From positions 2,604,001 through 2,668,000 of the forward strand of contig NZ_CP081943.1 in the NCBI RefSeq assembly GCF_020423045.1: a stretch of DNA of 64,000 bases, in the 5' to 3' direction. The number at the start of each line of letters is the position of its first letter. Position 1 is the first letter of the stretch. The position numbers and the translations under genes are program-made. Below the pieces are notes generated by a model. It worked only from the letters and a program-made list of their open reading frames with translations, did not search any database and was not told the DNA's origin. Of this stretch, positions 27,201 through 62,976 are shown one piece after another. Source of the DNA: Pseudomonas sp. MM213 (lineage in GTDB: Bacteria > Pseudomonadota > Gammaproteobacteria > Pseudomonadales > Pseudomonadaceae).

Positions 27201-27257
27201 TCTTCCCAGATAGCAAAGGCCCCCGCGCCTGCACCCTCGACGGCGAACCTGACTGAG

Positions 27258-28613: not shown

Positions 28614-28641
28614 CATTCACTTTGCCAAGCGAACCGAATTC

Positions 28642-29922: not shown

Positions 29923-29945
29923 AACACCGATTTCCTTTAGCGAGA

Positions 29946-30857: not shown

Positions 30858-30869
30858 CACCCCTTCCCC

Positions 30870-30892
30870 CGGCCGCCGCCAGTCGGCGGCCG
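30870..30892 (+). terminator. GC-rich hairpin after pvdO
   Basis: CGGCCGCC and GGCGGCCG form an 8-bp perfect stem with a 7-nt loop, 13 nt after the pvdO stop. There is no T-run, so it is a weak or imperfect terminator. It lies immediately upstream of the pvdE promoter element. Confidence 0.5.
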
Positions 30893-30894
30893 TC

Positions 30895-30918
30895 TAAATT
30901 AAACGCCTGGCCACACGT
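30895..30918 (+). promoter_or_regulatory. PvdS iron-starvation box of pvdE
   Basis: TAAAT (30895-30899, with CTAAAT context), 16 nt, CGT (30916-30918). The pvdE start is 42 nt downstream. Confidence 0.85.
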
Positions 30919-30960
30919 TCTTCTGGGTATCTGCCTCAAGACCCAAGGAACCCTTTCCTC

Positions 30961-32610
30961 ATGACCCAGCCTACGCGCGGTGCAATTCATGAATTGTTCA
31001 CCCTCCTGAAACCGTTCCGGCTGGTGGTCAGCCTATCGATCATTCTGGGCATGGTGGGCGGTCTGAGCGTGACGGTGTTGCTGGCCACGATCAACAATGC
31101 CCTGCATTCGGAAAGCGGCCTGACCCAGGGCGTGGTCGCACTGTTCGGCGGTCTTTGCCTGTTGGCGCTGGCGAGTTCGATTTGCTCGGACATCGGCACC
31201 AACTATGTCGGCCAGCACATCATCGCCAAGCTGCGCAAAGAGCTGGGGGAAAAGGTGCTGTCGGCGCCCATCGAACAGATCGAACGCTATCGCAGCCACC
31301 GACTGATCCCGGTGCTGACCCATGACGTCGACACCATCAGCGACTTCGCGTTTGCCTTCGCGCCGCTGGCCATTTCCCTGACCGTGACCCTCGGCTGCAT
31401 GGGCTACCTGGCCCTGTTGTCGTGGCCGATGTTCCTGATGATGGTGCTGGCGATTGCCATCGGCACCGGCATCCAGTTCTACGCACAGGGCAAGGGCATC
31501 AAGGGCTTCATGGCCGCCCGTGACGCCGAAGACGAATTGCAAAAGCACTACAACGCCATTGCCGGCGGCGCCAAGGAACTGCGCATTCACCGTCCGCGTC
31601 GCCAGCGCATGTTCACCTCGGGCATTCAGGGCACGGCGGATTTCATCTGCAACACTCAGGTGCGCTCGATCAATACCTTCGTGATCGCCAAGACGCTGGG
31701 GTCGATGCTGTTCTTCGTGGTCATCGGCCTCGCACTCGCCCTGCAATCGTTCTGGCCCAGCGCCGACAAGTCGGTGATGAGCGGTTTCGTCCTGGTGCTG
31801 CTGTACATGAAAGGCCCCATCGAGCATCTGGTCGGCACCTTGCCGGTGGTCAGCCGGGCGCGGATTGCCTTCCGCCGCATCGCCGAACTGTCGAGCCGGT
31901 TTTCCTCGCCCGAGCCGCACTTGCTGCTCAACGACACCGGCAAAAAACCGGCTGTGGTCAACAGTCTGCAACTGGACAACGTCAGCTATGCCTTCCCGGC
32001 TGTACCGGGCAGCGAAGCGTTCCGCCTGGGGCCGGTGAACCTGACCATCGAACAAGGCGACATCATTTTCATCGTCGGCGAAAACGGCTGCGGCAAGACC
32101 ACGCTGATCAAGTTGTTGCTGGGGCTTTATGCGCCGCAACAAGGCGCAATCCTGCTCAACGGCGAAGGTGTCGATGCGCAGAACCGTGACGACTATCGCC
32201 AACTGTTCACCACGATTTTTGCCGACTACTACCTGTTCGATGACGTGGTGCAGGGCGATCAGCACATTCCCGAAGACGCCAACAAATACCTGCAACGCCT
32301 GGAAATCGCGCACAAGGTCAGCGTCAAGGACGGCAGTTTCACCACCACCGACCTGTCCACCGGCCAGCGTAAACGCCTGGCACTGGTCAATGCCTGGCTA
32401 GAAGAACGCCCGGTGCTGGTGTTTGACGAATGGGCGGCCGACCAGGACCCGACCTTCCGCCGGATCTTCTACACCGAGCTGCTTCCGGACCTGAAGCGCC
32501 TGGGCAAAACCATCATCGTCATCTCCCACGACGACCGCTATTTCGACATGGCCGATCAGTTGGTGCGCATGGAATCGGGCCGTGTGGTGACGGAGCGGGC
32601 GACCGCCTGA
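30961..32610 (+). CDS. pvdE: Inner-membrane ABC exporter PvdE
   Basis: A 549-aa fusion of a six-helix ABC permease (about 1-310) and an ATPase. Walker A is GENGCGKTT at 373-381, the signature is LSTGQRKRLALVNAW, and Walker B is VLVFDEWAADQDP. It belongs to the cyclic-peptide/SyrD-like exporter group. PvdE moves the acylated ferribactin precursor from cytoplasm to periplasm, where PvdQ, PvdP, PvdM, PvdN and PvdO finish it. The gene has its own iron-starvation box and is followed by fpvA. Confidence 0.96.
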   Translation: MTQPTRGAIHELFTLLKPFRLVVSLSIILGMVGGLSVTVLLATINNALHSESGLTQGVVALFGGLCLLALASSICSDIGTNYVGQHIIAKLRKELGEKVLSAPIEQIERYRSHRLIPVLTHDVDTISDFAFAFAPLAISLTVTLGCMGYLALLSWPMFLMMVLAIAIGTGIQFYAQGKGIKGFMAARDAEDELQKHYNAIAGGAKELRIHRPRRQRMFTSGIQGTADFICNTQVRSINTFVIAKTLGSMLFFVVIGLALALQSFWPSADKSVMSGFVLVLLYMKGPIEHLVGTLPVVSRARIAFRRIAELSSRFSSPEPHLLLNDTGKKPAVVNSLQLDNVSYAFPAVPGSEAFRLGPVNLTIEQGDIIFIVGENGCGKTTLIKLLLGLYAPQQGAILLNGEGVDAQNRDDYRQLFTTIFADYYLFDDVVQGDQHIPEDANKYLQRLEIAHKVSVKDGSFTTTDLSTGQRKRLALVNAWLEERPVLVFDEWAADQDPTFRRIFYTELLPDLKRLGKTIIVISHDDRYFDMADQLVRMESGRVVTERATA

Positions 32611-32680
32611 GCAGCGTTGAATCCATATACCTCGACGATTTTCGGAGTTTGTTTTCCGGTTTCGTCGGGGTGATGCGTCT

Positions 32681-32699
32681 AATAATAATTATCATTAAC
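32681..32699 (+). promoter_or_regulatory. Fur box upstream of fpvA
   Basis: AATAATAATTATCATTAAC matches about 15 of 19 positions of the Fur consensus. It lies 36 nt before the fpvA ATG. No TAAAT-N16-CGT element is seen here, consistent with use of FpvI instead of PvdS. Confidence 0.75.
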
Positions 32700-32735
32700 T
32701 AAAAAAATCTGCACACCTTAGGAGCGATTTGAGCA

Positions 32736-35153
32736 ATGCAAAGCCCTACCCTGTCCCGCGCGCCGTTGGCTCTGGCCATCGCGCCGCAAAAGAAATTCCG
32801 AACAGTCGTACCGGGTGCGTTGCTGACCCTGTTGCTGCTGGGCACCTCTCAGGTCCAGGCCGCGCCGGTGAACGTCAACGTGCCTGCGCAATCGCTGGCC
32901 AGCGCGCTGCAGCAACTGGGTCAACAGACCGACCTGCAGATTCTGTACAGCCAGGACATGGTCAACGGCCTCAAGTCCACGGCGGTTTCCGGCAATCTGG
33001 AGCCGGAACAGGCATTGAATACGTTGCTGCTGGGGAGCGGCATTACGTTTCAACTGACTGGCAACACCGTTTCGCTGATTCCGGTCGCGGGTAACTCCAG
33101 CGCGCTGCAACTGGGCGCGACCGCCATTTCCGGCGTGGCGCCGGGGCCTACCACCGAAGGCACACATTCCTACACCACCGATCAAGTCAGCATCGGCAAG
33201 GGCAACATCAAGCTCAAGGACATCCCGCAGTCAGTGTCCGTCGTCACGCGCCAGCGCATGGACGACCAGAACATGAACAGCCTGCAAGACGCGATGCGCC
33301 AGGTCACCGGCGTCACCATCAAGACGTACAACTCCGGCTCCAGCCTGAACGACGTCTACATGCGCGGTTTCCTCGTCGATCAGGTGCAGGTTGACGGGGT
33401 ATCGCAACCGACCGGCCAGGGCGACATGGGCACCAGCTTCGACCTCGCGATGTACGATCGCGTCGAAGTGTTGCGCGGCCCATCCGGCCTGTATCAAGGC
33501 GCTGGCGAGCCCGGCGGCACCATCAACGTGGTGCGCAAGCGTGCCCTGAACAAATTCGCCCTCGGCGGCGAGCTGGGCGCAGGCTCCTATGACCACTACC
33601 GCTCGATGGTGGACGTCACCGGTCCGTTGAACGATCAAGGCACCGTGCGCGGTCGCTTCATCACCGCTTACGAAAACAACAAATCCTACGTCGACTCTGC
33701 CCAGAACGAACGCCCGATGGTGTACGGTCGCCTGGAATTCGACCTCGCCCCGTCCACCACCCTGTCGGTGGGCGGCGCCTACCAGCAGAACCACTCCACC
33801 CCGGCGTTCGGCTTGCCGGCCTTTGCCGACGGCAAATTGCTGGACGTGCCGCGCTCGACGTTCGTCGATGCCAAGTGGAACACCCTGAACGAGAAAGTCT
33901 GGGAGTCCTTTGCCGAGGTCGATCACGCGCTGGACAACGGTGGTCAGTTCAAGACCACTGTCACCTACCGCGACGCTGAAACGCCACAGCGAAACTTCAC
34001 CTGGGCCGACGGCGCAGTCGATCGTGATACCGGTGACAGCTGGGCCGTGGCATACGACTACTACACCCACATCAAGACCATCGGTGTCGACAGCTTCGTG
34101 ACCACGCCGTTCGAATTCGCCGATCGCAATCACGAGTTCACCGTAGGTGCCGAGTACCAGCACCTGGACAAAGACTTCGAATACGGTGGCGGCGAGTACT
34201 TCCCGATCAACGTCTACAATCCGGGCAGTATCGATATTCCCGAGAACAACTACGAGCGCAACAACGGTAACTGGTCCAAATCCGACCAATACGGCCTCTA
34301 TACCCGCGCCAAGTTCAACGTCACCGACTGGCTCGACGTGGTGGGCGGCAGCCGCGTGAGCTGGTACGAAAGTGACGCGAAGAACTCCAACGCCTTCTTC
34401 AACAGCTTCGGCGAAGCCCACACCAGCATCAACCGCAAGGTCGTGCCTTACGGCGCCATCATCGCCAAGCTGACCCCGGAACTGTCGGCCTACGCCAGCT
34501 ACACCGGCGTGTTCAAGCCACAAAGCGAGCTCGACAGCGACAATACGCCCATCGGACCGCGTAAAGGCAAGCAATATGAAGTCGGCCTCAAGCGCGAGTT
34601 CTACGACGGCCGCCTGAACGCCAGCATCGCGATGTTCCGCATCTACGATGAAAACCGTGCTCAATTCAACGCCGACACCGGTGGAAACGAAGCACAGGGC
34701 AAGGCGCGCAGCCAGGGCTGGGAAACCGAGCTGAGCGGTAACCTGACCGACAACTGGAGCATCGTCACCGGTTATGCCTTCACCACCACCAAATTGTTGA
34801 AATCTGACGACGCGACCGAAGGCAGCACTTTCAGCACCATCACGCCTAAACACAACTTCAACCTGTGGACCAAATACGAATTCGCCGACGGCCCGCTCAA
34901 AGACTTCAGCGTCGGCGGCGGTGTACGTGTGGTCAGCAAGACCTGGTACCAGCGTGAAGTGCGCTTCGAACAAAGCGGCTACGGCATCGCCACCGCGCAG
35001 GTGGGCTACAAGTTCAACGAGAACCTGTCGGCGACACTGACCGGCAACAACCTGTTTGATAAAAAGTACTACGATCGCGTGGATGCTTCGTGGGGGACTA
35101 ACTTCTATGGTGACCCGCGTAATCTGACGTTGACGTTGCGGGCTAATTATTGA
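32736..35153 (+). CDS. fpvA: Ferripyoverdine TonB-dependent receptor
   Basis: An 805-aa receptor with a signal peptide ending near SQVQAAPV, an STN signalling domain at about 45-120 (QSLASALQQLGQQTDLQILYS), a plug (IPQSVSVVTRQRMDDQNMNSL; VYMRGFLVDQVQVDG; EVLRGPSGLYQGAGEPGG) and a beta barrel with aromatic end LTLRANY. It imports ferripyoverdine with TonB energy and signals through an FpvR-type anti-sigma factor to FpvI and PvdS. Its place beside pvdE and near the NRPS genes marks it as the cognate receptor; receptor and peptide type usually co-vary. A strong terminator follows. Confidence 0.95.
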   Translation: MQSPTLSRAPLALAIAPQKKFRTVVPGALLTLLLLGTSQVQAAPVNVNVPAQSLASALQQLGQQTDLQILYSQDMVNGLKSTAVSGNLEPEQALNTLLLGSGITFQLTGNTVSLIPVAGNSSALQLGATAISGVAPGPTTEGTHSYTTDQVSIGKGNIKLKDIPQSVSVVTRQRMDDQNMNSLQDAMRQVTGVTIKTYNSGSSLNDVYMRGFLVDQVQVDGVSQPTGQGDMGTSFDLAMYDRVEVLRGPSGLYQGAGEPGGTINVVRKRALNKFALGGELGAGSYDHYRSMVDVTGPLNDQGTVRGRFITAYENNKSYVDSAQNERPMVYGRLEFDLAPSTTLSVGGAYQQNHSTPAFGLPAFADGKLLDVPRSTFVDAKWNTLNEKVWESFAEVDHALDNGGQFKTTVTYRDAETPQRNFTWADGAVDRDTGDSWAVAYDYYTHIKTIGVDSFVTTPFEFADRNHEFTVGAEYQHLDKDFEYGGGEYFPINVYNPGSIDIPENNYERNNGNWSKSDQYGLYTRAKFNVTDWLDVVGGSRVSWYESDAKNSNAFFNSFGEAHTSINRKVVPYGAIIAKLTPELSAYASYTGVFKPQSELDSDNTPIGPRKGKQYEVGLKREFYDGRLNASIAMFRIYDENRAQFNADTGGNEAQGKARSQGWETELSGNLTDNWSIVTGYAFTTTKLLKSDDATEGSTFSTITPKHNFNLWTKYEFADGPLKDFSVGGGVRVVSKTWYQREVRFEQSGYGIATAQVGYKFNENLSATLTGNNLFDKKYYDRVDASWGTNFYGDPRNLTLTLRANY

Positions 35154-37715: not shown

Positions 37716-49510
<11,795 letters not shown>

Positions 49511-49514
<4 letters not shown>

Positions 49515-52500
49515 CGCGTGTGTTCCTCATCCACTTCGTCGAACAACGCTTCCAGCGCGTCTACATCGTTTTCTTTGTGCTCACTGTGCTGACGGAACTG
49601 CTCGATTTCCGCCGCCAGGCGTTCCAGGGTGTCGCCTTCGAAGAACAGCTTCAGCGGGATCGCCAGGTTCAGTTCTTCCTGAATCCGCGCACGAATCCGC
49701 GTTGCCAACAGCGAGTGACCGCCGAGTTCGAAGAAACTGTCGTGCACGCCGACCCGCTCCACGTGCAGCGCTTCGGCCCAGATCGCCGCGAGGACTTTTT
49801 CCAGATCGGTGCGCGGGGCGACGAAGGCACTGCGACGTACGTCGAGGTCGAGCAAGGCCTGGCGGTTGAGTTTGCCGTTGGGCATCAGCGGGAAACGTTC
49901 CAGCACCTGCAAGCGCGCAGGTTGCATGTGCTCCGGCAACGCTTCGCTGAGGTGGCTGCGCAATTCGTTGAGGCGGATGTCGGCGGTGTCGGCCGGGGAA
50001 ATCACGAAGCCCAGCAGTTGCGGACCGGTCGGCGTTTCACGGGCGATGACGGCGGCGTCTTCAATGCCGGGGGCGCTGCGCATGGCGGATTCGATCTCGC
50101 CCAGTTCGATGCGGAAGCCACGGATTTTCACTTGATGATCGACCCGGCCGAGGTACTCCAGCACGCCATCGGCGCGGTAGCGTGCGAGGTCGCCGGTGCG
50201 GTACAGGCGTTGACCGGCCTGCTTCGCAAACAGGTCGGGCACAAAACGTTCGGCGGTCAGCGTGGCACGCTTGAGGTAGCCTCGGGCAATGCCGGCGCCG
50301 CCGACATACAGCTCACCTTCGACGCCCACGGCCACCGGCATCAAGTCCGGGCCGAGCACGTGAATGCGCATCCCCGGAATCGGCTGGCCAATCGGGATGG
50401 TGTCGTCATCCTGACCGAGCGGCAGTTCCCACGCCGAGCACCAGACCGTGCCTTCGGTCGGGCCGTATTCGTTGACCAGTGCCACTTGCGGCAAGGCCTC
50501 GCGATGACGTGCGACCAGGGCGTTGCTGCACGCTTCGCCCGCCACAATCACACACGCCAGCGCCGGGTTTTCGAGGTGTTCGAGAATCTGCGCGTGGTAG
50601 GACGGCAAGGTCAGGTAGTGGGAAACCTCTTCACGCTGGATCAGCGCCGCCAGCAGCGCCGGGTCCTTGTAGCTGTCTTCGTCCGGCAGGCACAGGGTCG
50701 CGCCCTGCCCCAACGCCCAGAAAACCCCGGCCACCGAGCTGTCGAAGGAGAACGACGAAAGCATCAGGAACGCGCGCAACGGCTGACGATAGAACGCGCT
50801 GCGTGCGAGGGTCGAGGCCACCGCGTTGGCGTGACTGATCATCACGCCCTTGGGTTTGCCGGTGGAGCCGGAGGTGTAAATGACGTAGGCAAGATGGGCG
50901 CTGTCGCCCAGCGGGACTGGCTGTTCCTGCGATGCAGACCAGACTTCAGTTTCCGGCATCAGCGAAATCACCCGCTCGCCGTGCAACGCTTCCGGCAGCG
51001 GCTGACAGGCCAGCACCTGACGCGCAGCGGCGTCCTGCAACATGAACGCCAGACGCTCGATCGGGTAGTTCGGATCGAGCGGCAGGTAAGCGGCGCCGGC
51101 CTTGAGTGTGCCGAGCAGTGCGATGACGATTTCCAGCGAACGCTGACCGTAGACCGCAACGATTTCATCCGGCGCAACGCCTTGCGCGCGCAGGGTATTG
51201 GCGACCTGGTTGGAGCGTGCATCCAGTTCGGCGTAGCTCAGGCGTTGGCCATTGACGCTGACGGCGATGCGCTGCGGATGCAGGCGTGCCTGTTCGGTGA
51301 ACAGGTCTTGCAGGTAGCGATGCGGCAGTGCCTGCTCGGCGGCCAGCGGGTTGAAGTCTTCGATCAAGCGGGTCAGTTGCACCGCGTTGACCTGAGTGGC
51401 CTGGCCCAGGGTCAGCTCGGGCGAGGTCAGCAACTGGCGGCTGAATTCGACAAACTGTTCCAGCCAGGCCGCCAGCATCGACTCGGGCACCGCGCCGGCC
51501 AGGCACGACAGCTGCAACTGTTCGCCTTGAACCCGCAGACGCAGGACTTCCGGGTTGGCATCGTCTACTTCAATGCTCACGTCGGCATCGGCCTGATACA
51601 CCAGGCCATAACGCAGCGGCGTCGCGACTTCGGCGCTCAGTTCAAACTCGTTGAGGCAGTCGAGCCAGGACAGCGATTGCTCGACGTTGCCAGCAAACGA
51701 GGCCAGCGCTTGCGCCAGGGTTTCGTGGCTGCGGTGATCAAACGCTACTGGCAAACGGCGGGCGAAACGCCCGAGGGTCGCTTCGGTCTGCTCGTTGCGC
51801 CCCGCCACTTCCCAGCCCATCAGCAACTTTTCCTGATTGCCGATGCGCGCCACAAACGCGCTCCACAGCAACAACGCCACGCGCTGCGCTTCGACGCCCT
51901 GAGCGGCGGCCAGCCGTTGCACATCGGCCAACCATGCCGCGTCATCAAGCGTCGCCTGATGGCGAGCCAGCGTCACTCCAACGGCCTTTTCAAAAGGCAG
52001 ATGATGGGCCTGCGCGAACTGCTGTTGCAGGTTGCGCCAGAATGCGGCGCCTTGATGGCCGATGTCTTCTTCGCGCAGTTCTTCCTGCCACGCGGTGTAA
52101 TCCAGGTACTGCAAGTCTTCCTGATTGTCGGCCAGTGTTTCGCCGCGCAACAGGCTCGCCAGCTCCGCCGACAGCACCCGCAGCGATGCTTCGTCGAGGC
52201 TGCTGGCCAGCGCCAGCAACGTGACGAAATGCTGACCGTCCGTGGTTTCCACTGACGCCACCACCAGCACCCGATCCGACGCCTCAGTCAGGGTTTCACG
52301 GCTGCGGTTTAGCGCTTCATCCAGCGAAGACACGCGACCCAGCAACGCGACCGGCAACTCGTCGCACAGGCTCTGTACCGGCCATTTCATCCCCGGCAGT
52401 CGGCGATAGACCGTGCGCAGGGTTTCATGGCGCTGGCCCAGTTTATCCAGTGCCGCACGCAATGCCTGCGCCTCCACAGCCTGGGCGACCGGCACGGTCA

Positions 52501-52609
52501 GGGCGGCGAACAGCGGCTGTCCGCCCAGTTCCTGAGCGCGCAAATAAAAGGCCTGCTGAGCCGAAGTCTGGAAAACGTCTACCGAAGGTTCGAGGGCGGT
52601 GGTGTTCAT
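49511..52609 (-). CDS. pvdJ: Pyoverdine NRPS: interface-type C-like domain + His adenylation + T
   Basis: A 1032-aa single-module synthetase. Residues 1 to about 440 have a condensation-domain fold, but the HHxxxDG position reads LASSLDE at 134-140, so both catalytic histidines are missing. A follows (TSGSTGKPKG near 578) and T (GGHS near 962). Pocket residues read DSALIAEVW, close to the histidine code (DSELTAEVC in bacitracin synthetase). A His-less C-like domain next to a dioxygenase gene matches the interface domains described for beta-hydroxylating siderophore NRPSs. The true condensation domain is the one ending the 3080-aa protein. NRPS naming differs between strains; pvdJ is a label of convenience. 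Confidence 0.88.
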
Positions 52610-52620
52610 GTCGAGGGTCC

Positions 52621-53679
52621 TTATTCCTGATCCAGGTCGGCGCTTTTCTGCGCGATGGCCATGGCCGTGAGGATTTTTCTGTAGCCAGTGAATTCGTTGC
52701 GCGCATGCACGCTGAGGATGTTGTCCAGCAGGACCACGTCGCCCTTCTCCCAGGCGAACTCGACCATCACGTCGCGATAGATGCCTTGCAGGTGGCGGAT
52801 GACGTCGTCGGGGATGGCCGAGCCGTCGCCGAAGAAGGTGTTTTGCGGCAGGTCCAGCGGGCCGAATTCACGCAGCAGGTTGTCGCGGATGCTGTCCGGC
52901 AGGGTCAGCGCGTTGAAGAAGGTGCCGTGGTTGAACCAGATGCGCTCGCCCGTCAGCGGATGGCGCACGATGGCCGGGCCGTTTTGCCGGGTGCGCAGGC
53001 GATTGCCGGACTTCCACTCGGCCTGAATGCCGATCTTCGCGCAGTAGGCTTCGACTTCGCCGCGATCTTCGCTCTGGAACACGGTCTGCCATGGCAGCCC
53101 CATGCCGTCGCCGTAGTTGCGCACGTACATGATGCGTTTACGCTGAAACTCCTCGCGCACGGCCGGGTCGATTCGCGCGAGGATTTCGCGGGTGTCGCCG
53201 AACGGTGTTTCGCCGCCGGTGGCCGAGGGCGTGTCGCAGTAGAAGTACAGGTGACGCGGGAACACCGGCGAATAGGAATGCTCGTTGTGCGGGAAGATTT
53301 TCTCCGCCGCCGGGTAATCGGTGGAGCTGTAGATCTTGAACTGACCGGTGATCTGGGTCCGTGGCGAGGCGCGGAACAGGTACTCCAGGGCGCCGTCGGA
53401 AATCGCCGCCACGCAGCGGTTGAATTCGGCGATGTCGGCCACCTGGAAGCCACGGAACAGAATCACCGCGTGATCAAGCAGCTTGCTTTCGATCAGGGCG
53501 CGATTCTCCGTCGCCCATTCCACCAGGCTCACACCAGGCACTGCCGGGCGGCACACCAGCGGCATGCTGGCACCGTCGAACATCGGCGCAAAACTCACCA
53601 GCCGGGTCGGGTCGGTGGACAGGCTCTTGCGCGCACCGCGGCCGATTTTGGGAATGGACTTGGTGGTTGAAACAGTCAT
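52621..53679 (-). CDS. TauD/SyrP-like Fe(II)/2-oxoglutarate dioxygenase, probable histidine beta-hydroxylase
   Basis: The protein is 352 aa from the ATG at 53679 (GGAGG upstream); a 14-aa extension is rejected. The iron site is H131-N-E133 (PHNEHSY) with distal His325 (SVHARNEF); Arg334 (GYRKI) should hold 2-oxoglutarate. It resembles SyrP, which hydroxylates aspartate on a carrier domain. It lies between the two NRPS genes, 11 nt before the one that loads His and carries the interface domain. The inferred reaction is beta-hydroxylation of T-bound His, making the imidazole-hydroxyl iron ligand. Aspartate cannot be excluded from the dioxygenase alone, but no Asp module exists here. Confidence 0.88.
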   Translation of the reverse strand: MTVSTTKSIPKIGRGARKSLSTDPTRLVSFAPMFDGASMPLVCRPAVPGVSLVEWATENRALIESKLLDHAVILFRGFQVADIAEFNRCVAAISDGALEYLFRASPRTQITGQFKIYSSTDYPAAEKIFPHNEHSYSPVFPRHLYFYCDTPSATGGETPFGDTREILARIDPAVREEFQRKRIMYVRNYGDGMGLPWQTVFQSEDRGEVEAYCAKIGIQAEWKSGNRLRTRQNGPAIVRHPLTGERIWFNHGTFFNALTLPDSIRDNLLREFGPLDLPQNTFFGDGSAIPDDVIRHLQGIYRDVMVEFAWEKGDVVLLDNILSVHARNEFTGYRKILTAMAIAQKSADLDQE

Positions 53680-53701
53680 AAACCCCTCCAGAAAATGATG
53701 A

Positions 53702-53726
53702 CGGCGGCGCCCGGTTGGCACCGCCG
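53702..53726 (-). other. Stem-loop between the 3080-aa NRPS gene and the dioxygenase gene
   Basis: CGGCGG and CCGCCG arms extend through GCC/GGC with one wobble pair around a short loop, giving a stable hairpin of about 25 nt in the 54-nt spacer. There is no T-run, so it is more likely an RNA-processing or attenuation element than a terminator. Confidence 0.5.
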
Positions 53727-53733
53727 CAATGAA

Positions 53734-56700
53734 TCAGTCCGCCGCGCCTTGCGTTGCCGGCGTGCCGCGACGACGCTTGATCGCCATGGGCCCGCCCAGC
53801 AACGCCTTGCGCTGCTCGTTCAATCGCGCATCGGCACGGCGCTGCACCTCGGTGGCCAGTTCCAGCAGATCGCTGACCGTCAGCTCGTCGGCGCGCAACA
53901 ACGCTTGCAGTACCGCCTCGATTTGTTCGAACAGGCTTTGCAGCGTGCTCGGCAAGTACTGCCCGGCGGGTGTTTCGAAACTCAGGTGAATGTGTTCGGC
54001 CTCGTTGTAGAACGCAGCGACCATGCCGATCTCGGCAGCTTGCCGGCCCGACGGGAAGTCCTCGACCAACAAGCCGTCCATGGAGGGCAAGCGACCGACG
54101 CCTTCCTGATAGATCAACTTGATGTCGAACAACGGCGAACGCCCGGCCCGACGCGGCAAGCGCAACGCTTCCACCAATCGCTCGAACGGCAGGTCCTGAT
54201 GGTCCGAAGCCTCCAGAACCGCACGGCGACAGGCTTGCAACAGTTGCCCGGCAGCCTGGTCGGCATCGACCTCCACTTGCAGCACTAATTGGTTAACGAA
54301 GAAGCCGACCATTTGTTCAAGCTCAACTTGATTTCGGTTGGCGATATCGGTGCCGATGCGCACGCGACTGACCTCGGTGCGCTGACGCAACACCAGGGTG
54401 AAGCCGGCCAATAGCACCATGAACAGCGACAATCCACGCTGTTGGGCGAAGTCGCGCAACTGCTGACTCAAGGTCGAATTCAAGGTGAAATGTTGGCTGG
54501 CGCCTTCCTGCGCCTGACGCTGATCGCCGTCGCCCGGCAGCTCCAGCACGGCTTGCGGCTGGCCGAGGCGCGCCTGCCAGTAATCGAGCTGACGTTGCAG
54601 CTCGCCGCCCTGCTCCAGCCACTGACGCTGCCATTTGGCGAAGTCTGCGTATTGCACGCTGTGCTCCGGCAACTGCGCGACACCACCCCGGTTGAGGGTC
54701 GGGTACAGCGTGACGAATTCATTGATCAGAATCCGGAACGACCAGTCATCCGCCGCGATGTGGTGCACCGTCAGCAGCAGCACATGTTCCTGATCCGCGA
54801 CCTGCAACACCCGCACCCGCAGCAACGGCCCGTTTCGCAAATCGAACGGCCGGGCGACTTCTTCACGGGCCAACTGCGCGGCTTCGACGTCCGGGGCCGG
54901 CAAATGCCGCAGGTCGTTGATGGCGAAATCCAGCGGCAGTTCGGCGTGTACCCGCTGCCAGGCCTGGCCGTCTTCCTCATAGAACGTGGTGCGCAACACG
55001 GCGTGGCGTTGCACCAGGGTTTCGAAGGTTTGCTGCAACGCCGACAGGTTCAACGCGCCGCGCAACCGCAAGGCGCCGGGCATGTTGTACATCGAGCTGT
55101 CGGGCTCGAGGTTCCACAGGAACCACAACCGCTGCTGGGCAAAGGACAACGGCTGGCGTTCGCCGGAGTGATCCGCCACCAGCGCCGGGCGTTCGCAGAC
55201 ATTGGCGGCGTGCCGCAGGCCTTGCACCTGAGCCGCGAAATCCTGCAGGCGCGGGTGTTCGAACAGGCTGCGCAAACTCACCGACAGGCCCAGTCGCTGA
55301 CGAATCTGCGAGACGATCTGCGTGGCCAGCAACGAATGGCCGCCCAATTCGAAGAAGCTGTTTTCGCGATCGACACGGGCAACCTGCAACACCTGCTGCC
55401 AGATCTGCGCCAGCTCGATTTCCAGCTCACCTTGCGGTGCGGTGCCGGCCACGGCTTCCCAGACTTCGGGTGCCGGCAGCGCCGCACGGTCGAGTTTGCC
55501 GTTGCGGTTGAGCGGCAATGCGCTCATCACCACCAGTTGCGCCGGGAGCATGTAGTCCGGCAGACGCTCGCCCAAAGCCTGGCGCACGGTCTCGGTGAGT
55601 TGACGCGAATCAGCGTTCGGCAACACCGGCACCACATAACCGATCAGTTGCTTGCCACCGACGCCTTCGTGCACCAGCACCGCGGCTTCGCTGATCATCG
55701 GCAAGCCTTGCAGGTGCGCTTCCAGCTCACCGAGTTCAACGCGGAAACCGCGAATTTTCACCTGATGGTCGATGCGTCCCAGGTATTCCAGCGCGCCGTC
55801 CTCGCGATACCGCGCCAGGTCGCCGCTGCGGTACAAACGTGCGCCCGGCGTGGTGGAAAACGGATCGGCGATAAAGCGTTCGGCACTCAAACCCGGACGC
55901 TGGTGATAGTGCTGGGCAATGCCGGCATCACCGCCGATGCACAACTCGCCCGCGCAACCGGTTGGCAGCAGATGGCCCTCGGTGTCCAGCACGTACAACG
56001 CCCGACCGGGCAAGGCGCGGCCAATCGGCACGCCGATCAGGTTTTGCGTATCGCCCAAGGTGCACAGGTGGGTGCTGGAAACCACGGTGGCTTCGGTCGG
56101 CCCATAGGTGTTGAGCAGGCGTACGTCGCCGAGACCGGCGGCATGCCAGAGCTTCAGGCCCTCCAGTGACATGGCTTCGCCGCCGACATGAACCTGCCGC
56201 AACCGACCTTTGTCGCGCTGAGGCTGCGCGGCCCATTCCTGGGCCAGCAAATACCAGTAGGCCGCCGGCAAGTCCGCCAGGGTCACGCCCTGTTCGATGA
56301 TCTGCCGGTACAAGGTGTCGGTGTCCCACAGCTCATCGCCGCGCAACACCAGCGCCGCGCCCACGCACAGCGGCGGGTAGCATTGCTCGACAAAGCCGTC
56401 GAAGCTGAACGTGGCGAATTGCAGCACGCGGTCGTCGGCGCTGAGTTGCGAATAGTCCGCCGCAATCACGCAAAACTCGCGCAGCGCGGCGTGGGCCAGG
56501 CACACGCCTTTCGGCCGCCCGGTGGAACCGGAGGTGTAAATCAGGTATGCGAGGTCTTCGGCACAGGCGAGGTTGACCGGATTGGCCGTGGAATAGCCGG
56601 CCAGCGACGCCTCTGTCAGCGCCAGGCGCGGCAAGCCTTCCGGCAGCGCGACATCGTTCAGCAGCTCCGGTTGCGCCAGCAGCAGGTCCATGCCGCTGTC

Positions 56701-59700
56701 TTCGATCATGTAGGCCAGGCGTTCGGCCGGGTAGTCCGGGTCCAGCGGCACGTAACCGGCACCGGACTTGAGGATGGCCATGAGGCTGACGATCATCTGT
56801 GCATTGCGCCGCACCGACAGGCCGACCCGTTGCCCCGGCGCCACGCCGTGTTCGCGCAGGCGATGGGCGAGCTGGTTGGCCTGGGCGTTGAGCTGTGCAT
56901 AAGTCAGTCGCTCGTCGCCGGCAATTACGGCCCATGCATCGGGCGTGCGGGCCGCTTGCTGCTCGAAACGCTGATGCGCCAACAGCGGACTGTCCAGCTG
57001 CGGCGCGGCGGGACGCGAGCCCAGCAATACCTGCGCTGTTTGCTTCGCGTCCAACAGACTGACGGCGCCCAATACCTGCTGCGGCTGCGCAACGAACTGT
57101 TCCAGCACATGCAGCAGGTTCGCACTCAAACGCTCGATCTGCGCGGCGCTGAACAAGGTCCGGTCGAAACTGAATTCCAGACGCAGGCTGGCGCCGACTT
57201 CGATGCCGAGGGTCAGCGGGTAGCTGGTGATTTCGTGATTGCGCAATGCGCCGAAGGTCAGTCCCGCTGGCGCCCCTTGCTTCAGCGCTTCGGCCACCGG
57301 GAAGTTTTCGAACACCAGCAAGCTGTCGAACAGTGCATTGCCCTGCTGCCCGGCCCAGCCCTGAATGTCGTAGAGCGGCACATGCTCGAACTCACGCAGG
57401 CTCAGGTTCAGCGCTTGCAACTCATTGAGCCATTGGCTGACCGGTTGCGCGGACGACGGCGTGGCAATGATCGGCAAGGTGTTGATGAACAGGCCCAACT
57501 GTTGCTCGATACCCGGCAACGGTGCGGATCGCCCGGCAATCGTAGCGCCGAACGCCACGCACGATTGGCCAGTGTAGCGTTGCAACAGCAGGCCCCATGC
57601 GCCCTGCAACAAGGTGTTGAGGGTGATTTTCTGCTGCCGGGCAAACTCTGCCAGACGCTGCATGGCGGCGCTTTCGAGCGTCAGGTGATGCTCGCCCATG
57701 CCGCGCCCTTCGACCGGCGTCGGCAAGGCTTGCGCCAGCAAGGTCGGGGTTTCGAGCGCGGCCAGCGCCTGTTTCCAGAACTGTTCGCCCGCCGCCGGTG
57801 GCTGCTGCTGAATCCAGCCCAAGTAGTCGCGGTATTGCCCCAAAGGCTTGGCCAGTGTTTGCCCGGCGTAATGCTGAATCACCTCTCCGAGCAACTGTGC
57901 GTTGCTCCAGCCGTCCATGAGGATGTGATGACTGGTGTAGATCAGGTGCCAGGCGTCGCTGCTCTGGCGCACCAGCATCAGGCGGAACAGCGGCGCGGCA
58001 CTGAGTTCGAAACCACGGCTGCGCTCCTCGGCGGCCAGTGCATCGAGGTCGATATCGGCCGCTTCGATCACCTGCAATTGCAGGTCGATCTGGCGATGAA
58101 TCACCTGATGCGCAGCTTCCAGGCCCAACCAGTGGAAGCTGCTGCGCAGAATGTCGTGACGGTTGATCGCCGCCTGCCACGCCCGACCGAAGGCCGCCAG
58201 TTCCAGCCCCTGGATATCCAGGCGCAGTTGGTTGATGTAGGCCTCGGCCTGCGGCTCATACAAGGTGTGGAACAGCATGCCCTGCTGCATCGGCGTCAAC
58301 GGATAAATGTCTTCGATGGCCGGGGCGGCGACGGGCAAGGCGTCCAGCTGCGCCTGATTGATCCGTGCCAACGGGAAGTCTGACGGCGTGACCTGCCCCG
58401 CTGGCGTGGCGCAGCAGTGTTCGATCAGCGCAGTGAGTTCTTCGGTGTAGGCGTCGGCCAGTTTTTGAACGGTGCCGTCGGCGAACATGTCGCGACTGAA
58501 CCCCCATTGCAGCGAGAGCTGACCGCCATAGACCTGGCTTTCCAGCGTCAGCCAGTTGGCCAGCGGTGCATCGTCACCCTGGGCCTGACCGCCGCTTTCC
58601 GCTGCGGGTACAAACAGTGCGTCTTCATCGAACTGGCGGTCGAACTGGCCGAGGTAGTTGAAGGTGATCCGTGGCGCCGGTAACCCTTGCAACGCTTCAC
58701 GCTGGGCCGGTTCGCCGAGGTAACGCAGCAGGCCATACCCCAGGCCTTTGTCGGGGATGGCGCGCAGTTGCTCCTTGATCGCCTTGATCGTGTTCGCCGT
58801 TTGCGCGTGAGGTTGCAGGCGCACCGGGAACAGGCTGGTGAACCAACCCACGGTGCGCGTCAGGTCGAGGTCGTCGAACAGGTCTTCACGGCCATGGCCT
58901 TCGAGCTGGATCAGCGTCGAGTTGTGCCCGGTCCAACGGCAGATCACCCGCGCCAGAGCGGTCAGCAGCAGGTCGTTGACCTGAGTGCGATAGGCCACCG
59001 GCGCCGTTTGCAGTAATTGCCGCGTCAGCCCGGCGTCGAGCTTCGATTCGATTTTGTGGCCGTGACGATGCTGCAAGCTGCCCAGCGGATTTTCACACGG
59101 CAGGTCGCGGGCATCGGCGTGTTGTGCCTGCCAGTAAGGCAGTTGTTGATCCAGCGTGCGGGCATGCGCTTGCAGGTGTTTGGCCCAGTGTTGATAAGCG
59201 CTGGTTTTGTCCGGCAACGTTGCGGCGCTGCCACCCGCCAATTGCGCGTAGACCTGCTGCAGGTCTTCGAGCAGCACCCGCCAGGACACGCCGTCCACCG
59301 CCAGATGGTGGACCGCCAGCAGCAGACGTTGCGAGCCATCGTCGAGACTGACCAGCAGCGCGCGCAACAACGGCCCATCGGCCAGATCGAGGCTGCGTTG
59401 TGCTTCGTCGCACAGGGCCGTCAACGCCTCGGTCGACGCCGCGTGACGCTGCCACAATCCGGTCGTTTCGACCTGTGGTCCATGAGACTGCTGCCAGCCA
59501 TCGACACTCGCGGCAAACCGCAGGCGCAAGGCATCGTGATGGTTGATTACCGTCACCAGCGCGGCTTCCAGTGCTTGCGGGTTCAGCGCCTCGCGCGGCG
59601 TCAACAGCAAGGACTGGTTCCAGTGTTGCGGTTGCGCGATGGCCTGCTCAAAGAAGTAGTGTTGCGCCGGGGTCAGGATCACCTCACCGCTGACCGGCCC

Positions 59701-62700
59701 TTGGTCGATGGCACTGCGATTGTCGAACGCCGCCACCAGCGCCAGGCTGCGCACGGTCTGGTACTGAAACAGGTCGCGCGGACTGAGACGGATGCCGGCC
59801 TGACGGGCGCGGCTGACCACTTGAATGGAGATGATCGAATCACCGCCCAGTTCGAAGAAGTTGTCTTCGAGGCCCACACGTTCCAGGCCCAACACGTCCT
59901 GCCAGATCTGCGCCAATGCCATCTGCATCGCATCTTGCGGCGCGACGAACGCCTGTTGCGGCGCCGCGTCCGGTTGCGGCAGGGCCTTGCGGTCCAGTTT
60001 GCCGTTGGCGGTCACCGGCAAGGCATCGAGCGGCATCAGGTAGGTCGGCACCATGTATTCCGGCAAGCTTTTGAGCAGCCAGCCCTTGAGGGTTTCCGGC
60101 CACTGCGCCTCGGCGCTTTCCAGCACCAGGTACGCCACCAGATGTTTGCCGCCCTGCACCAGGACCACCGCCTCGCGCACCAGCGGATGCTGCATCAGAC
60201 GGGTTTCGATTTCCCCCAGCTCGATACGCAGACCGCGCAGTTTCACTTGATGGTCGAGGCGGCCGAGGTATTCGATCACCCCGTCGGCACGCTGGCGCAC
60301 GCGGTCGCCGGTGCGGTACAGGCGTGCGCCGTCATGGAACGGGCACGGCACAAATCGCTCGGCCGTCAGCCCCGGACGCCGGTGATAACTGCGCGCCAGA
60401 CCAGCGCCGCCCAGGTACAACTCCCCCGCCACGCCCGCCGGCACCGGCAGCAACTGCGCGTCCAGAACGTGGGTGCGCAGGTTGGCAATCGGCCGGCCGA
60501 TGGGCACGCTGTCGGCGCCCTCGTCAACGCAGGTCCAGTGGGTCACGTCGATGGCCGCTTCGGTCGGCCCGTACAAGTTGAACAACCCGGCGCCCGGCAG
60601 TTTGGCGAACACCTGAAGCTGGGCATCCAGCGGCAGGGCTTCACCGCTGCACGCGATGCGTTTGAGGCTGGTGCAGGCTTCTACGCCCGGTTCGTGGATA
60701 AACGCCTGAAGCATCGACGGCACAAAGTGCAAGGTGCTGATGCCGAACTCGCCGATGAGGCCGATCAACCGCGCCGGTTCGCGATGCGCACCCGGCGGCG
60801 CCACCACCAGACGGGCACCGGTCATCAACGGCCAGAAGAACTCCCAGACCGACACATCAAAACTGAACGGGGTTTTCTGCAACACCGAGTCGCTGCCGTC
60901 CAGCCCGTACGCCTGTTGCATCCAGCACAAACGGTTGACCAGCGCCGCATGGCTGTTGCCGGCGCCCTTGGGTTTGCCGGTGGAACCGGAGGTGTAAATC
61001 ACATAGGCCAGGTTCAGCGGATTCACCGACACCTGCGGGCAATTTTCGCTGTAACCGTCCAGCCAGTCCTCGTCCTGATCCAGTGCGATGACCTTGATGC
61101 CCTCGGTCGGCAGCGTGCCAGCCAGGGCGCTTTGGGTCAGCAACACGCCAATCGCACTGTCTTCGATCATGTAGGCCAGGCGTTCCGCCGGGTATTCCGG
61201 ATCGAGCGGCACGTAAGCACCGCCGGCCTTGAGAATCGCCAACAGGCCAATGACCATTTCCAGCGAACGCTCAACGGCAATCCCCACCAGCACATCGAGG
61301 CCGACACCCTGCTCGCGCAGGTAATGCGCCAATTGATTGGTGCGTGCATCGAGCTGTGCATAAGTCAGCTGACGGTCGCCAAACACCAGCGCCGGCGCCT
61401 CGGGTGTGCGCAAGGCCTGGGCGTGGATCAGTTCATGAATGCATTGCTCGACGGGATAGGTTTCGGCGGTGCGGTTCCAGTCATGCACCAGCACCTGTTG
61501 TTCATCCGCCGCCAGCATCGGCAGCTCGCCGACCCGCTGATGTGTGTCGATCACCATTGCCTGCAACAGCCGCGTCCAGTGCTGCGCCATGCGCGCGATG
61601 GTCGGCGCGTCGAACAGGTCGCTGGCGTAAGTCAGCGCGGCGTGCAGCTTGCCGCCCTTTTCATAGGTGTCGAGGGTCAGGTCGAACTGCGTGGTGCGCC
61701 CTTCCCACTCGATCGCGCCCAGCACCAGGCCGGACGCGGTGCTGATGCTGGACATGTCCGCGACCTGCGGCTGGTGGTTGTACATCACCTGGAACAGCGG
61801 CGTGTGGCTGAGGCTGCGCTCCAGTTTCAGCGCTTCGACCAGACGCTCGAACGGCAAATCCTGATGGGCCTGGGCACCGAGCGCAGTCTCCTTGATGGCG
61901 CGCAGCAGATCGTCAACGCGGGTGTGGCCATCGAGCCGGGTGCGCAGCACTTGGGTGTTGACGAAGAAGCCGATCAGGCCTTCGATTTCCGCTCGGTTGC
62001 GGTTGGCAATCGGCACCCCGACACGGATGTCGGTCTGCCCGGTGTAGCGATGCAGCAGCGCGTTGAACGCACCGAGCAACAGCATGAACAGGGTGATGTT
62101 GTGTTTCTGCGCGGTGGTGCGCAGTTGCTCGGCCAGTTGCGTGTCGACGGCGAATTCGTAGCGTGTGCCTCGATAACTCGGCATCGCCGGACGCGAGTGG
62201 TCGGTGGGCAACTCCAGCACCGGGTGCTCATCGCCGAGTTGCGCTTGCCAGTAATCGAGTTGGCGCGCCTGCTCGCCCGCCTCCAGCCAGCGGCGTTGCC
62301 ACAAGGCGTAGTCGCTGTACTGGATCGGCAGCGGCGCGAGTTGCGGTTGTGCACCAGCCTCGAAGGCGTCGTAGCAGCGGATGAACTCGTCGATCAGCAC
62401 GTTCATCGACCAGCCGTCGGAGACGATGTGATGCAGGGTCAGCAGCAGGACGTGTTCCTGCTCGGCGAGTTTGAGCAAGGTCACCCGCAGCAGCGGGCCG
62501 ACGGACAAATCGAAGGGCAGCACCGATTGCTGTTCGGCCGCTTGGGCGACGGCACGTTCGCGCTCCGTTTCCGGCAAGGCGCTGAAGTCCACGTGTTTGA
62601 TGATCAGCGGCGCGCTGGCCGGCACTTGCAGCAAGGTGTCGTCGGCCTGGCGCTGAAACACCGTGCGCAGGGTTTCGTGACGTGCCACGAGGCTGACGAA

Positions 62701-62976
62701 GGCTTGTTCCAGCGCCGACAGGTTCAACGCACCGGTCAAACGCACCGCGCCCGGCAGGTTGTAGGCACCACTTTGCGCGTCCAGTTGCCAGAGAAACCAC
62801 ATGCGTTGCTGGGCATATGACAGCGCCTGGCGATCCTCGGCCTCGACGCCGGCAGGAATGGGGAACCGGGCGAAATCAATGCCTTCCTTTTGCAAGGCCG
62901 CAAGGAACATCTGGCGCTTTTCCAGGGGCAACCCGATAAACCGGCGAGCAAGTTTCAAGGAGTCATCAGCATTCAT
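53734..62976 (-). CDS. pvdI: Pyoverdine NRPS: Ser(E)-Lys modules with a C-terminal condensation domain
   Basis: The 3080-aa synthetase has order C-A-T-E-C-A-T-C. Landmarks: C1 HHIVSDGWS near 182; A1 TSGSTGKPKG near 662; T1 GGDS near 1042; E HHLAVDG near 1222; C2 HHILMDG near 1681; A2 TSGSTGRPKG near 2149; T2 GGHS near 2542; C3 HHIAADDWS near 2737. Pocket residues read by eye: A1 DVWHASLID (Ser) and A2 DGEDHGTVV (Lys, matching the known lysine code). The E domain gives D-Ser. The N-terminal C domain should accept the chromophore precursor from PvdL, which is not in the window. The protein ends in a C domain with no following A domain, so it must work with the downstream His module. pvdI is a name of convenience. 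Confidence 0.93.
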   Translation of the reverse strand: MNADDSLKLARRFIGLPLEKRQMFLAALQKEGIDFARFPIPAGVEAEDRQALSYAQQRMWFLWQLDAQSGAYNLPGAVRLTGALNLSALEQAFVSLVARHETLRTVFQRQADDTLLQVPASAPLIIKHVDFSALPETERERAVAQAAEQQSVLPFDLSVGPLLRVTLLKLAEQEHVLLLTLHHIVSDGWSMNVLIDEFIRCYDAFEAGAQPQLAPLPIQYSDYALWQRRWLEAGEQARQLDYWQAQLGDEHPVLELPTDHSRPAMPSYRGTRYEFAVDTQLAEQLRTTAQKHNITLFMLLLGAFNALLHRYTGQTDIRVGVPIANRNRAEIEGLIGFFVNTQVLRTRLDGHTRVDDLLRAIKETALGAQAHQDLPFERLVEALKLERSLSHTPLFQVMYNHQPQVADMSSISTASGLVLGAIEWEGRTTQFDLTLDTYEKGGKLHAALTYASDLFDAPTIARMAQHWTRLLQAMVIDTHQRVGELPMLAADEQQVLVHDWNRTAETYPVEQCIHELIHAQALRTPEAPALVFGDRQLTYAQLDARTNQLAHYLREQGVGLDVLVGIAVERSLEMVIGLLAILKAGGAYVPLDPEYPAERLAYMIEDSAIGVLLTQSALAGTLPTEGIKVIALDQDEDWLDGYSENCPQVSVNPLNLAYVIYTSGSTGKPKGAGNSHAALVNRLCWMQQAYGLDGSDSVLQKTPFSFDVSVWEFFWPLMTGARLVVAPPGAHREPARLIGLIGEFGISTLHFVPSMLQAFIHEPGVEACTSLKRIACSGEALPLDAQLQVFAKLPGAGLFNLYGPTEAAIDVTHWTCVDEGADSVPIGRPIANLRTHVLDAQLLPVPAGVAGELYLGGAGLARSYHRRPGLTAERFVPCPFHDGARLYRTGDRVRQRADGVIEYLGRLDHQVKLRGLRIELGEIETRLMQHPLVREAVVLVQGGKHLVAYLVLESAEAQWPETLKGWLLKSLPEYMVPTYLMPLDALPVTANGKLDRKALPQPDAAPQQAFVAPQDAMQMALAQIWQDVLGLERVGLEDNFFELGGDSIISIQVVSRARQAGIRLSPRDLFQYQTVRSLALVAAFDNRSAIDQGPVSGEVILTPAQHYFFEQAIAQPQHWNQSLLLTPREALNPQALEAALVTVINHHDALRLRFAASVDGWQQSHGPQVETTGLWQRHAASTEALTALCDEAQRSLDLADGPLLRALLVSLDDGSQRLLLAVHHLAVDGVSWRVLLEDLQQVYAQLAGGSAATLPDKTSAYQHWAKHLQAHARTLDQQLPYWQAQHADARDLPCENPLGSLQHRHGHKIESKLDAGLTRQLLQTAPVAYRTQVNDLLLTALARVICRWTGHNSTLIQLEGHGREDLFDDLDLTRTVGWFTSLFPVRLQPHAQTANTIKAIKEQLRAIPDKGLGYGLLRYLGEPAQREALQGLPAPRITFNYLGQFDRQFDEDALFVPAAESGGQAQGDDAPLANWLTLESQVYGGQLSLQWGFSRDMFADGTVQKLADAYTEELTALIEHCCATPAGQVTPSDFPLARINQAQLDALPVAAPAIEDIYPLTPMQQGMLFHTLYEPQAEAYINQLRLDIQGLELAAFGRAWQAAINRHDILRSSFHWLGLEAAHQVIHRQIDLQLQVIEAADIDLDALAAEERSRGFELSAAPLFRLMLVRQSSDAWHLIYTSHHILMDGWSNAQLLGEVIQHYAGQTLAKPLGQYRDYLGWIQQQPPAAGEQFWKQALAALETPTLLAQALPTPVEGRGMGEHHLTLESAAMQRLAEFARQQKITLNTLLQGAWGLLLQRYTGQSCVAFGATIAGRSAPLPGIEQQLGLFINTLPIIATPSSAQPVSQWLNELQALNLSLREFEHVPLYDIQGWAGQQGNALFDSLLVFENFPVAEALKQGAPAGLTFGALRNHEITSYPLTLGIEVGASLRLEFSFDRTLFSAAQIERLSANLLHVLEQFVAQPQQVLGAVSLLDAKQTAQVLLGSRPAAPQLDSPLLAHQRFEQQAARTPDAWAVIAGDERLTYAQLNAQANQLAHRLREHGVAPGQRVGLSVRRNAQMIVSLMAILKSGAGYVPLDPDYPAERLAYMIEDSGMDLLLAQPELLNDVALPEGLPRLALTEASLAGYSTANPVNLACAEDLAYLIYTSGSTGRPKGVCLAHAALREFCVIAADYSQLSADDRVLQFATFSFDGFVEQCYPPLCVGAALVLRGDELWDTDTLYRQIIEQGVTLADLPAAYWYLLAQEWAAQPQRDKGRLRQVHVGGEAMSLEGLKLWHAAGLGDVRLLNTYGPTEATVVSSTHLCTLGDTQNLIGVPIGRALPGRALYVLDTEGHLLPTGCAGELCIGGDAGIAQHYHQRPGLSAERFIADPFSTTPGARLYRSGDLARYREDGALEYLGRIDHQVKIRGFRVELGELEAHLQGLPMISEAAVLVHEGVGGKQLIGYVVPVLPNADSRQLTETVRQALGERLPDYMLPAQLVVMSALPLNRNGKLDRAALPAPEVWEAVAGTAPQGELEIELAQIWQQVLQVARVDRENSFFELGGHSLLATQIVSQIRQRLGLSVSLRSLFEHPRLQDFAAQVQGLRHAANVCERPALVADHSGERQPLSFAQQRLWFLWNLEPDSSMYNMPGALRLRGALNLSALQQTFETLVQRHAVLRTTFYEEDGQAWQRVHAELPLDFAINDLRHLPAPDVEAAQLAREEVARPFDLRNGPLLRVRVLQVADQEHVLLLTVHHIAADDWSFRILINEFVTLYPTLNRGGVAQLPEHSVQYADFAKWQRQWLEQGGELQRQLDYWQARLGQPQAVLELPGDGDQRQAQEGASQHFTLNSTLSQQLRDFAQQRGLSLFMVLLAGFTLVLRQRTEVSRVRIGTDIANRNQVELEQMVGFFVNQLVLQVEVDADQAAGQLLQACRRAVLEASDHQDLPFERLVEALRLPRRAGRSPLFDIKLIYQEGVGRLPSMDGLLVEDFPSGRQAAEIGMVAAFYNEAEHIHLSFETPAGQYLPSTLQSLFEQIEAVLQALLRADELTVSDLLELATEVQRRADARLNEQRKALLGGPMAIKRRRGTPATQGAAD

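Follow-up and report, generated by a model that had tools for sequence, protein, structure and literature searches.

A predicted beta-hydroxyhistidine station split between synthetases in a pyoverdine locus of Pseudomonas sp. MM213

Proteins at the locus

We consider here a run of non-ribosomal peptide synthetase (NRPS) genes in a window of 64,000 nucleotides from Pseudomonas sp. MM213 (contig NZ_CP081943.1, positions 2,604,001 to 2,668,000; the window is this whole stretch, and coordinates are counted within it). On the minus strand the gene order is a first large synthetase (NRPS-A), a hydroxylase, a protein of 1032 amino acids and a second large synthetase (NRPS-B). Where the first three adjoin lies a putative station for the hydroxylation of histidine, with these features:

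53842..55176, minus strand, condensation (C) domain at the end of NRPS-A, partner of the station, residues about 2601-3045 (coordinates computed from residue numbers; about residues 2606-3050 when counted on the open frame of 3085 residues), motif HHIAADD, in which the Gly of HHxxxDG is replaced
53734..53841, minus strand, C-terminal tail of NRPS-A, with a basic cluster at the end of its sequence (...MAIKRRRGTPATQGAAD)
52621..53679, minus strand (GTG frame to 53721), TauD-family Fe(II)/2-oxoglutarate hydroxylase, 352 amino acids from ATG, H131-x-E133/H325 (Pfam, alignment, model)
51308..52609, minus strand, interface domain, residues 1-434, with a C-domain fold, His-less (LASSLDE at 134-140; motif, tree, model)
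49865..51301, minus strand, adenylation (A) domain, residues 437-915, code DSALIAEVWK, which we take to be His-type (Pfam, code)
49595..49819, minus strand, carrier domain (T, or peptidyl carrier protein, PCP), residues 931-1005, which would bear His (Pfam, domain mapping)
49511..52609, minus strand, the whole interface-A(His)-T protein of 1032 amino acids (open reading frame, ORF)

An earlier reading of the letters alone (the sequence-only reading) had described much of this. Its 3080-residue NRPS with a lone terminal C domain is borne out by the ORF and by domain mapping; LASSLDE does stand at 134-140 of the next NRPS, exactly where C domains have HHxxxDG; and the residues which it named for a Fe/2-oxoglutarate dioxygenase encoded between the two NRPSs are exact when counted from the likely ATG, with the family given by Pfam as TauD. 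Adenylation of His by the interface protein, also proposed there, agrees with the code of the A domain if this is read as His-type.

The ORF of the hydroxylase runs from a GTG at 53721 to 52621; its residue 15, at 53679, is the likely start ATG. The protein has a TauD match of 144 bits, and its Fe site (H132, E134 and H326 in aligned numbering) is invariant in 52 aligned sequences. The predicted model has a mean confidence (predicted local distance difference test, pLDDT) of 87.2; a sequence search of solved structures returned 1y0z (E 6.7e-31), which was top by fold too. No NCBIfam family scored above its cut-off in a scan of the hydroxylase.

The N-terminus of the 1032-residue protein gives a partial match to Pfam Condensation (residues 29-308, 90 bits, cut-off 30.6), so routine annotation would label it as a normal C domain. 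A tree was built of 136 domains of the C superfamily, comprising C, epimerization (E) and interface domains; in it the window's domain and 49 other His-less domains formed one group (SH-aLRT, the approximate likelihood-ratio branch support, 100), away from every C and E domain sampled. Clustering with active C domains was the outcome which the sequence-only reading had named as refuting it, and the tree came out the other way. The claim that residues 1-430 are of interface type and make no working C domain is thus supported: the window's domain neither has an HHxxxD with both His nor clusters with C or E domains. Its predicted model has pLDDT 90.4, and the sequence search of solved structures returned C domains, 2jgp being the best (E 2.8e-15).

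The loss of catalytic residues is a family trait. No complete interface domain of the two sets of loci described below retains the second catalytic His (lost in 50/50 in set 1 and 86/86 in set 2), and only one retains the first. Interface domains have invariant residues of their own, namely L64, Q79, D139, W174, W191, W249, R271, G280 and L358 in 39 aligned members. Furthermore, an Asn of C domains (47/47 representatives) is replaced by Lys or Arg in 17 of 26 His-type interface representatives, and the usual His of C domains (30/47) by Trp in 22 of the 26; these replacements could close the tunnel, much like the changed residues of the X-domain, which an excerpt of PMC6565677 likewise links to tunnel closure. 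One could imagine the interface domain as an altered but active enzyme of the C superfamily, e.g. epimerase-like or proofreading, instead of a recruiter. The absence of the second His from every complete member, and of the first from nearly every one, together with a tunnel that the His-type replacements could close, make such an enzyme very unlikely.

The split among relatives

Our survey of the genus covered 199 genomes, of which 106 had a hydroxylase match. The close group of hydroxylases is found in 27 of the 199 (10 at 72-100% identity and 17 at 55-59%; the next best match is at 42%). For set 1 we took 18 kb around 26 close hits and the window itself (for genome G000), as well as up to 20 kb around 31 hand-picked hits of lower identity. 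In 27 of 27 close loci, the His-type, a free hydroxylase stands between two NRPS frames, the one upstream with a C domain at its end and the one downstream opening with a His-less domain followed by an A domain. The lower-identity loci are of several kinds: (i) in 21 of 31 an NRPS has at its end a C domain with the hydroxylase fused behind it, and the next frame opens with a His-less domain and an A domain in 20 of 20 in view, the one belonging to locus L067 lying outside the stretch; (ii) in five of the remaining 10 (L059, L061-L064) the hydroxylase is free and the frame after it has an intact HHxxxD domain; (iii) the other five have no NRPS frame directly downstream.

Set 2, the named loci, consists of the best 80 of 165 relatives from a scan of GTDB genomes. 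Hosts are mostly Pseudomonas, including P. thivervalensis, P. corrugata, P. entomophila, P. vancouverensis and P. protegens; others are Massilia, Aquabacterium, Stenotrophomonas, Peristeroidobacter, Nitrococcus, metagenome-assembled genomes (MAGs) of Sorangium and of Nitrospirales, Dictyobacter, a Nostocales cyanobacterium and more. We take these to span several phyla. All 87 interface domains above 40 bits stand first in their frame, and none of the 87 lies behind a C domain on the same frame; the hydroxylase is free in 80 of 80 loci, and the nearest upstream frame with domains ends in a C domain in 79 of 80. As these loci were chosen via the hydroxylase, interface domains without one would mostly have been missed.

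The interface domain was therefore also used as a query against the 199 genomes, and it returned the same 27 genomes as the hydroxylase, at ranks 1-26 and 29, with ranks 27 and 28 (G094 and G192; frames of 6004 and 5483 amino acids) left out of the comparison. Weaker hits (107/199 genomes, E<=1e-8) include ordinary C domains, and a clear outcome is limited to close interface domains. A class-wide search with the interface alignment matched 54 of 369 genomes at E<=1e-10, all but G000 and G563 at <=190 bits; these matches were kept out of the counts, for they overlap the range of ordinary C domains of G000 (up to 151 bits). The hydroxylase matched 9 of the 369 genomes at E<=1e-50. Loci L088-L126, from the class-wide searches, and L207 were left out of the analysis.

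A C domain that ends one protein, an interface domain that opens the next and, in the His-type, a hydroxylase at the break are thus shown to be the standard layout in the loci sampled. The sequence-only reading had regarded the placing of the C and interface domains on different polypeptides as most unusual; this is not supported, since the same split is seen in 27/27 His-type and 20/20 Asp-type (C-fused) loci and for 87/87 interface domains of named loci. Far from being peculiar to one cluster, the split is the norm for a family of siderophore hydroxylation loci in what we take to be several phyla, and its position shows engineers where to cut such stations in order to move them. The layout is beyond chance, as the same three parts recur in 27 of 199 genomes and none of the complete relatives examined keeps the second catalytic His.

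Some loci carry two or more stations in a row, Asp-type before His-type (L040-L043, L155, L159, L162, L163, L193, L201). In L148 (P. protegens 14B2) and L192 (P. kitaguniensis) the station or its neighbours are split over several frames, which may reflect decay or assembly error.

The A code behind the interface domain follows the type of locus: DSALIAEVWK in 27/27 His-type and DLTK[VI]GHVGK in 20/20 Asp-type loci. Among 86 interface domains of the named loci with an A domain behind, 75 have DSAL[IV]AEVWK, 8 an Asp-like code, 1 DAWQYGLIDK and 2 a code not fully readable. We read DSALIAEVWK as His-type, DLTK.. as Asp-type, DVWH.SL.DK as Ser, DFWN.GMVHK as Thr, DGEDHGTVVK as Lys and DAWQ.GLIDK as Gln-like. 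The single DAWQYGLIDK (L204, 10990, Nostocales cyanobacterium HT-58-2) may thus mark an interface station whose residue is neither His nor Asp. Hydroxylases of pyoverdine-type loci are 71-94% identical to the window's, those of other His-type loci 53-58% and those of the Asp-type 33-39%.

These figures bear on whether the hydroxylase might act on another residue or on the released product, its place between NRPS genes being a coincidence. Gene position alone is indeed no proof of substrate. The class of hydroxylase, however, tracks the next A code without exception in both types, and pyoverdine with hydroxyhistidine (OHHis) is reported from a station-carrying species, P. entomophila, and reportedly from others; we hold a tailoring role of this sort to be extremely improbable. 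In a table of PMC4219678 the pyoverdine of P. entomophila L48 contains OHHis, and a P. entomophila genome, COR5 (L151), carries the His station. The same source lists the pyoverdine structure of P. vancouverensis LMG 20222T as unknown; a P. vancouverensis genome (L141) carries the His station as well. We predict beta-OHHis in the pyoverdines of the window strain and of P. vancouverensis.

Probable course of hydroxylation and possible docking signals

We consider it very probable that the locus holds, within a pyoverdine cluster, a station for beta-hydroxyhistidine that belongs to the known IbetaH-His/interface type, with a His-loaded carrier, a non-condensing platform, a free hydroxylase and a terminal C domain acting in trans, its split being the standard layout. 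The A domain of the 1032-residue protein would load His on its own carrier. The His-less domain of C fold would be a landing platform holding the free TauD-type hydroxylase against the loaded carrier, and beta-hydroxy-His would be made before condensation. Presented by the carrier as acceptor, in trans, it would receive the Ser-Lys chain from the lone C domain of NRPS-A; NRPS-B would then extend the chain onward. Since C domain and hydroxylase are fused in Asp-type relatives, we expect the two to work side by side. In the sequence-only reading the trans contact ‘must’ join three proteins; the station does comprise three polypeptides, but ‘must’ is too strong a word for a simultaneous contact of all three.

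What could hold the parts together? In the hydroxylase model residues 1-22 are disordered (pLDDT <50), and Arg18 and Lys19 of this N-terminus are invariant in 15 aligned His-type enzymes. A basic pair is present in 27/27 His-type N-termini and in 13/14 Asp-type linkers examined. The contrast with other hydroxylases is not absolute: 11 stand-alone frames of other types have a basic pair in 5 cases, all before the likely start Met as we read it, while among 24 stand-alone N-termini not of His-type Arg-Arg follows the likely Met in L053 and L054, and basic pairs lie close to the start of L067, which is itself unclear. The protein with the upstream C domain has a basic end too: in its last 30 residues behind the C domain Arg-Arg occurs in 73 of 78 loci, many of them close kin, versus 6 of 85 other NRPS ends. 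The latter are PCP, E or TE (thioesterase) ends of the same loci, 76 of them with at least 15 residues and none ending in a C domain.

On the interface side we looked at acidic positions. The first pick included His-type domains and was circular; a second pick used 17 Asp-type representatives, and its positions were then scored on 26 His-type ones that had been held out. At the 13 re-picked positions the mean acidic fraction in the held-out domains is 0.46 versus 0.11 at other columns, with five of the 13 (18, 163, 272, 283 and 310) at <=0.36; the low fraction in C domains (0.07) belongs to the selection and is no test. The basic N-terminus, the basic tail and the acidic positions suggest a docking code, in which the likely binding site of the first two is an acidic side, conserved among interface domains.

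A fuller version can be put forward only tentatively, and we think it rather doubtful. The acidic side would bind both the hydroxylase's Arg-Lys peptide and the C protein's tail, and a single platform would thereby bring hydroxylase and C domain together at one carrier; for the Asp-type, one basic linker would serve both ends. The C/interface break would then be functional and no accident of gene layout: a swing point from which the carrier calls at the hydroxylase before it moves on to the C domain. How a free oxygenase is recruited by an NRPS can thus be cast, with the basic and acidic features, as a concrete hypothesis open to mutagenesis.

The tail and the hydroxylase N-terminus were also compared as possible copies of one linker, an idea which we rejected: same-locus pairs score 21.5 on average, other-locus pairs 20.1 and shuffled tails 18.5 (standard deviation 4.5). 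Shuffle p is <=0.045 in L155, L156, L159, L161 and L164, and other loci do worse than shuffles.

Several observations speak against the scheme outlined above. (i) The overall test of tail against N-terminus on 22 representatives is not significant (mean z 0.74, pairing permutation p 0.09), for which reason only a shared basic character is claimed. (ii) The window's own interface domain is acidic at only 5 of the 8 positions listed first. (iii) In L157 (Sorangium MAG, 1745-4005) a single interface-A-T-E protein is preceded by two successive TauD frames. (iv) L203 has a hydroxylase, and no interface domain was found on its 12-kb contig. (v) The third interface domain of L205 (frame 19032-21002) has a C-ending frame before it and no hydroxylase between, the nearest ending 8 kb upstream.

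Locus L205 (Dictyobacter arantiisoli) has three interface domains in ∼20 kb; the other two lie behind a C-TauD fusion and a free hydroxylase, and the two readable codes are Asp-like.

The domain without an adjacent hydroxylase could be cited for a different view, that the interface domain is a vestige, a broken C domain serving as a mere structural cap while the hydroxylase reaches the carrier unaided. The domain has lost its catalytic motif, and free hydroxylases of another class adjoin modules with intact HHxxxD and no interface domain (class ii of the lower-identity loci). Decay, however, would not yield a single group across several phyla with invariant residues of its own and family-wide replacements at sites where C domains are uniform; moreover, hydroxylase and close interface domain co-occur in the same 27 of 199 genomes. 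We regard a vestige as very unlikely and retain the landing platform.

The partner C domain has a feature of its own. In the ten pyoverdine-type stations of set 1 (the window and L031-L039) its motif is HHxxxD[DHY] in 10/10, whereas DG is found in 4/4 of L040-L043 and in 9/9 extracted from L044-L056 (four left out). The 81 upstream C domains of set 2 have DG in 50 (one with HQ), DD in 20, DH in 8, DA in 2 and DS in 1; in its pyoverdine-type loci (L127-L154, L165, L199) DD or DH occurs in 27/30, DG being kept in L150, L152 and L154. In the open-licence literature, interface domains with NRPS hydroxylases came up in two papers, both of which cite Reitz et al. (2019); these gave nothing on the basic and acidic features, though no search was aimed at these by name. 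Possibly new are the disordered Arg-Lys N-terminus, the basic tail of the C protein, the acidic interface positions and the loss of Gly in most pyoverdine-type partner C domains.

Pyoverdine context and known systems

The surroundings of the station comprise:

53734..62976, minus strand, NRPS-A, 3080 amino acids, C-A(Ser)-T-E-C-A(Lys)-T-C with the lone C domain at the end (domain mapping; A codes)
37716..49514, minus strand, NRPS-B, 3932 amino acids, C-A(Thr)-T-E-C-A(Ser)-T-C-A(OHOrn?)-T-TE, which would take the chain on (domain mapping; A codes; OHOrn, hydroxyornithine)
18185..35153, strand not specified, pyoverdine context by profile matches: Lys/Orn monooxygenase, sigma factor of ECF (extracytoplasmic function) type, MacAB-like efflux with outer-membrane factor, PvdP, PvdN, PvdO, cyclic-peptide exporter and TonB receptor

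The domain order was called by comparison with the window's own domains, and one T domain of NRPS-B was found by Pfam only. The start of NRPS-B overlaps the frame of the 1032-residue protein by 4 bases. With PvdP, PvdN and PvdO nearby, all above NCBIfam cut-offs, and with the Lys/Orn monooxygenase and the ECF-type sigma factor, the locus is one for pyoverdine. The A codes of NRPS-A are DVWHASLIDK (module 1) and DGEAHGTVVK by alignment, or DGEDHGTVVK when anchored by eye (module 2); those of NRPS-B are DFWNVGMVHK, DVWHMSLIDK and DGECCGGVTK. The residues are probably D-Ser, Lys, His, D-Thr, Ser and, from DGECCGGVTK, a last hydroxyornithine. A pyoverdine is known with the order Ser-Lys-OHHis-aThr-Ser-cOHOrn (aThr, allo-threonine; cOHOrn, cyclic OHOrn).

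Among known systems the stand-alone T-class hydroxylases, which have no interface domain, are, like the window's, of the TauD family and encoded beside an NRPS. They (L057-L064) are 35-40% identical to it, and the directly following NRPS frame opens with an intact HHxxxD in 5/5, unlike the window. The X-domain of glycopeptide-antibiotic synthetases recruits P450 Oxy enzymes to the carrier-bound peptide, whereas the partner in the window is a TauD hydroxylase; no P450 is among the matches listed for those window ORFs, a part of the whole, that were scanned. The X-domain motif HRxxxDD/DE, as given in excerpts of papers, keeps the first His, and LASSLDE does not conform to it.

The IbetaH-Asp stations are closer: the C/interface break is at the same place and the interface domains fall in the same group of the tree, while the hydroxylase is fused to the C protein and the A code is DLTK[VI]GHVGK. 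An example in an excerpt of PMC7100376 is PtcB, where a TauD Asp hydroxylase fused with a C domain at the C-terminus is envisioned to act on the adjacent module. Passages of PMC12904278 and PMC10999976 mention TauD hydroxylases in siderophore NRPSs and not the split, and passages of PMC11366639, PMC11444679, PMC8949500 and PMC10291192 hold nothing on a split station. Profiles for these hydroxylases and interface domains exist in antiSMASH 8, as text from PMC12230676 indicates. Part of PMC12971057 gives IBH_His as the siderophore family for beta-OHHis, with beta-OHHis pathways in <2% of metallophore regions.

The closest likeness is to the IbetaH-His systems, which have a free TauD-type hydroxylase, a His-less domain of C fold before A(His)-T and a siderophore cluster. 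Reitz et al. (2019, PNAS, doi 10.1073/pnas.1903161116) reportedly described IbetaH-His hydroxylases with interface domains, covering histicorrugatin, corrugatin and OHHis pyoverdines. The window has a TauD hydroxylase with intact Fe site by an NRPS, a His-less domain distinct from C and E domains, and an adjacent His-type A domain. Set against the IbetaH-His systems as reported, also in excerpts of citing papers, we see no categorical difference.

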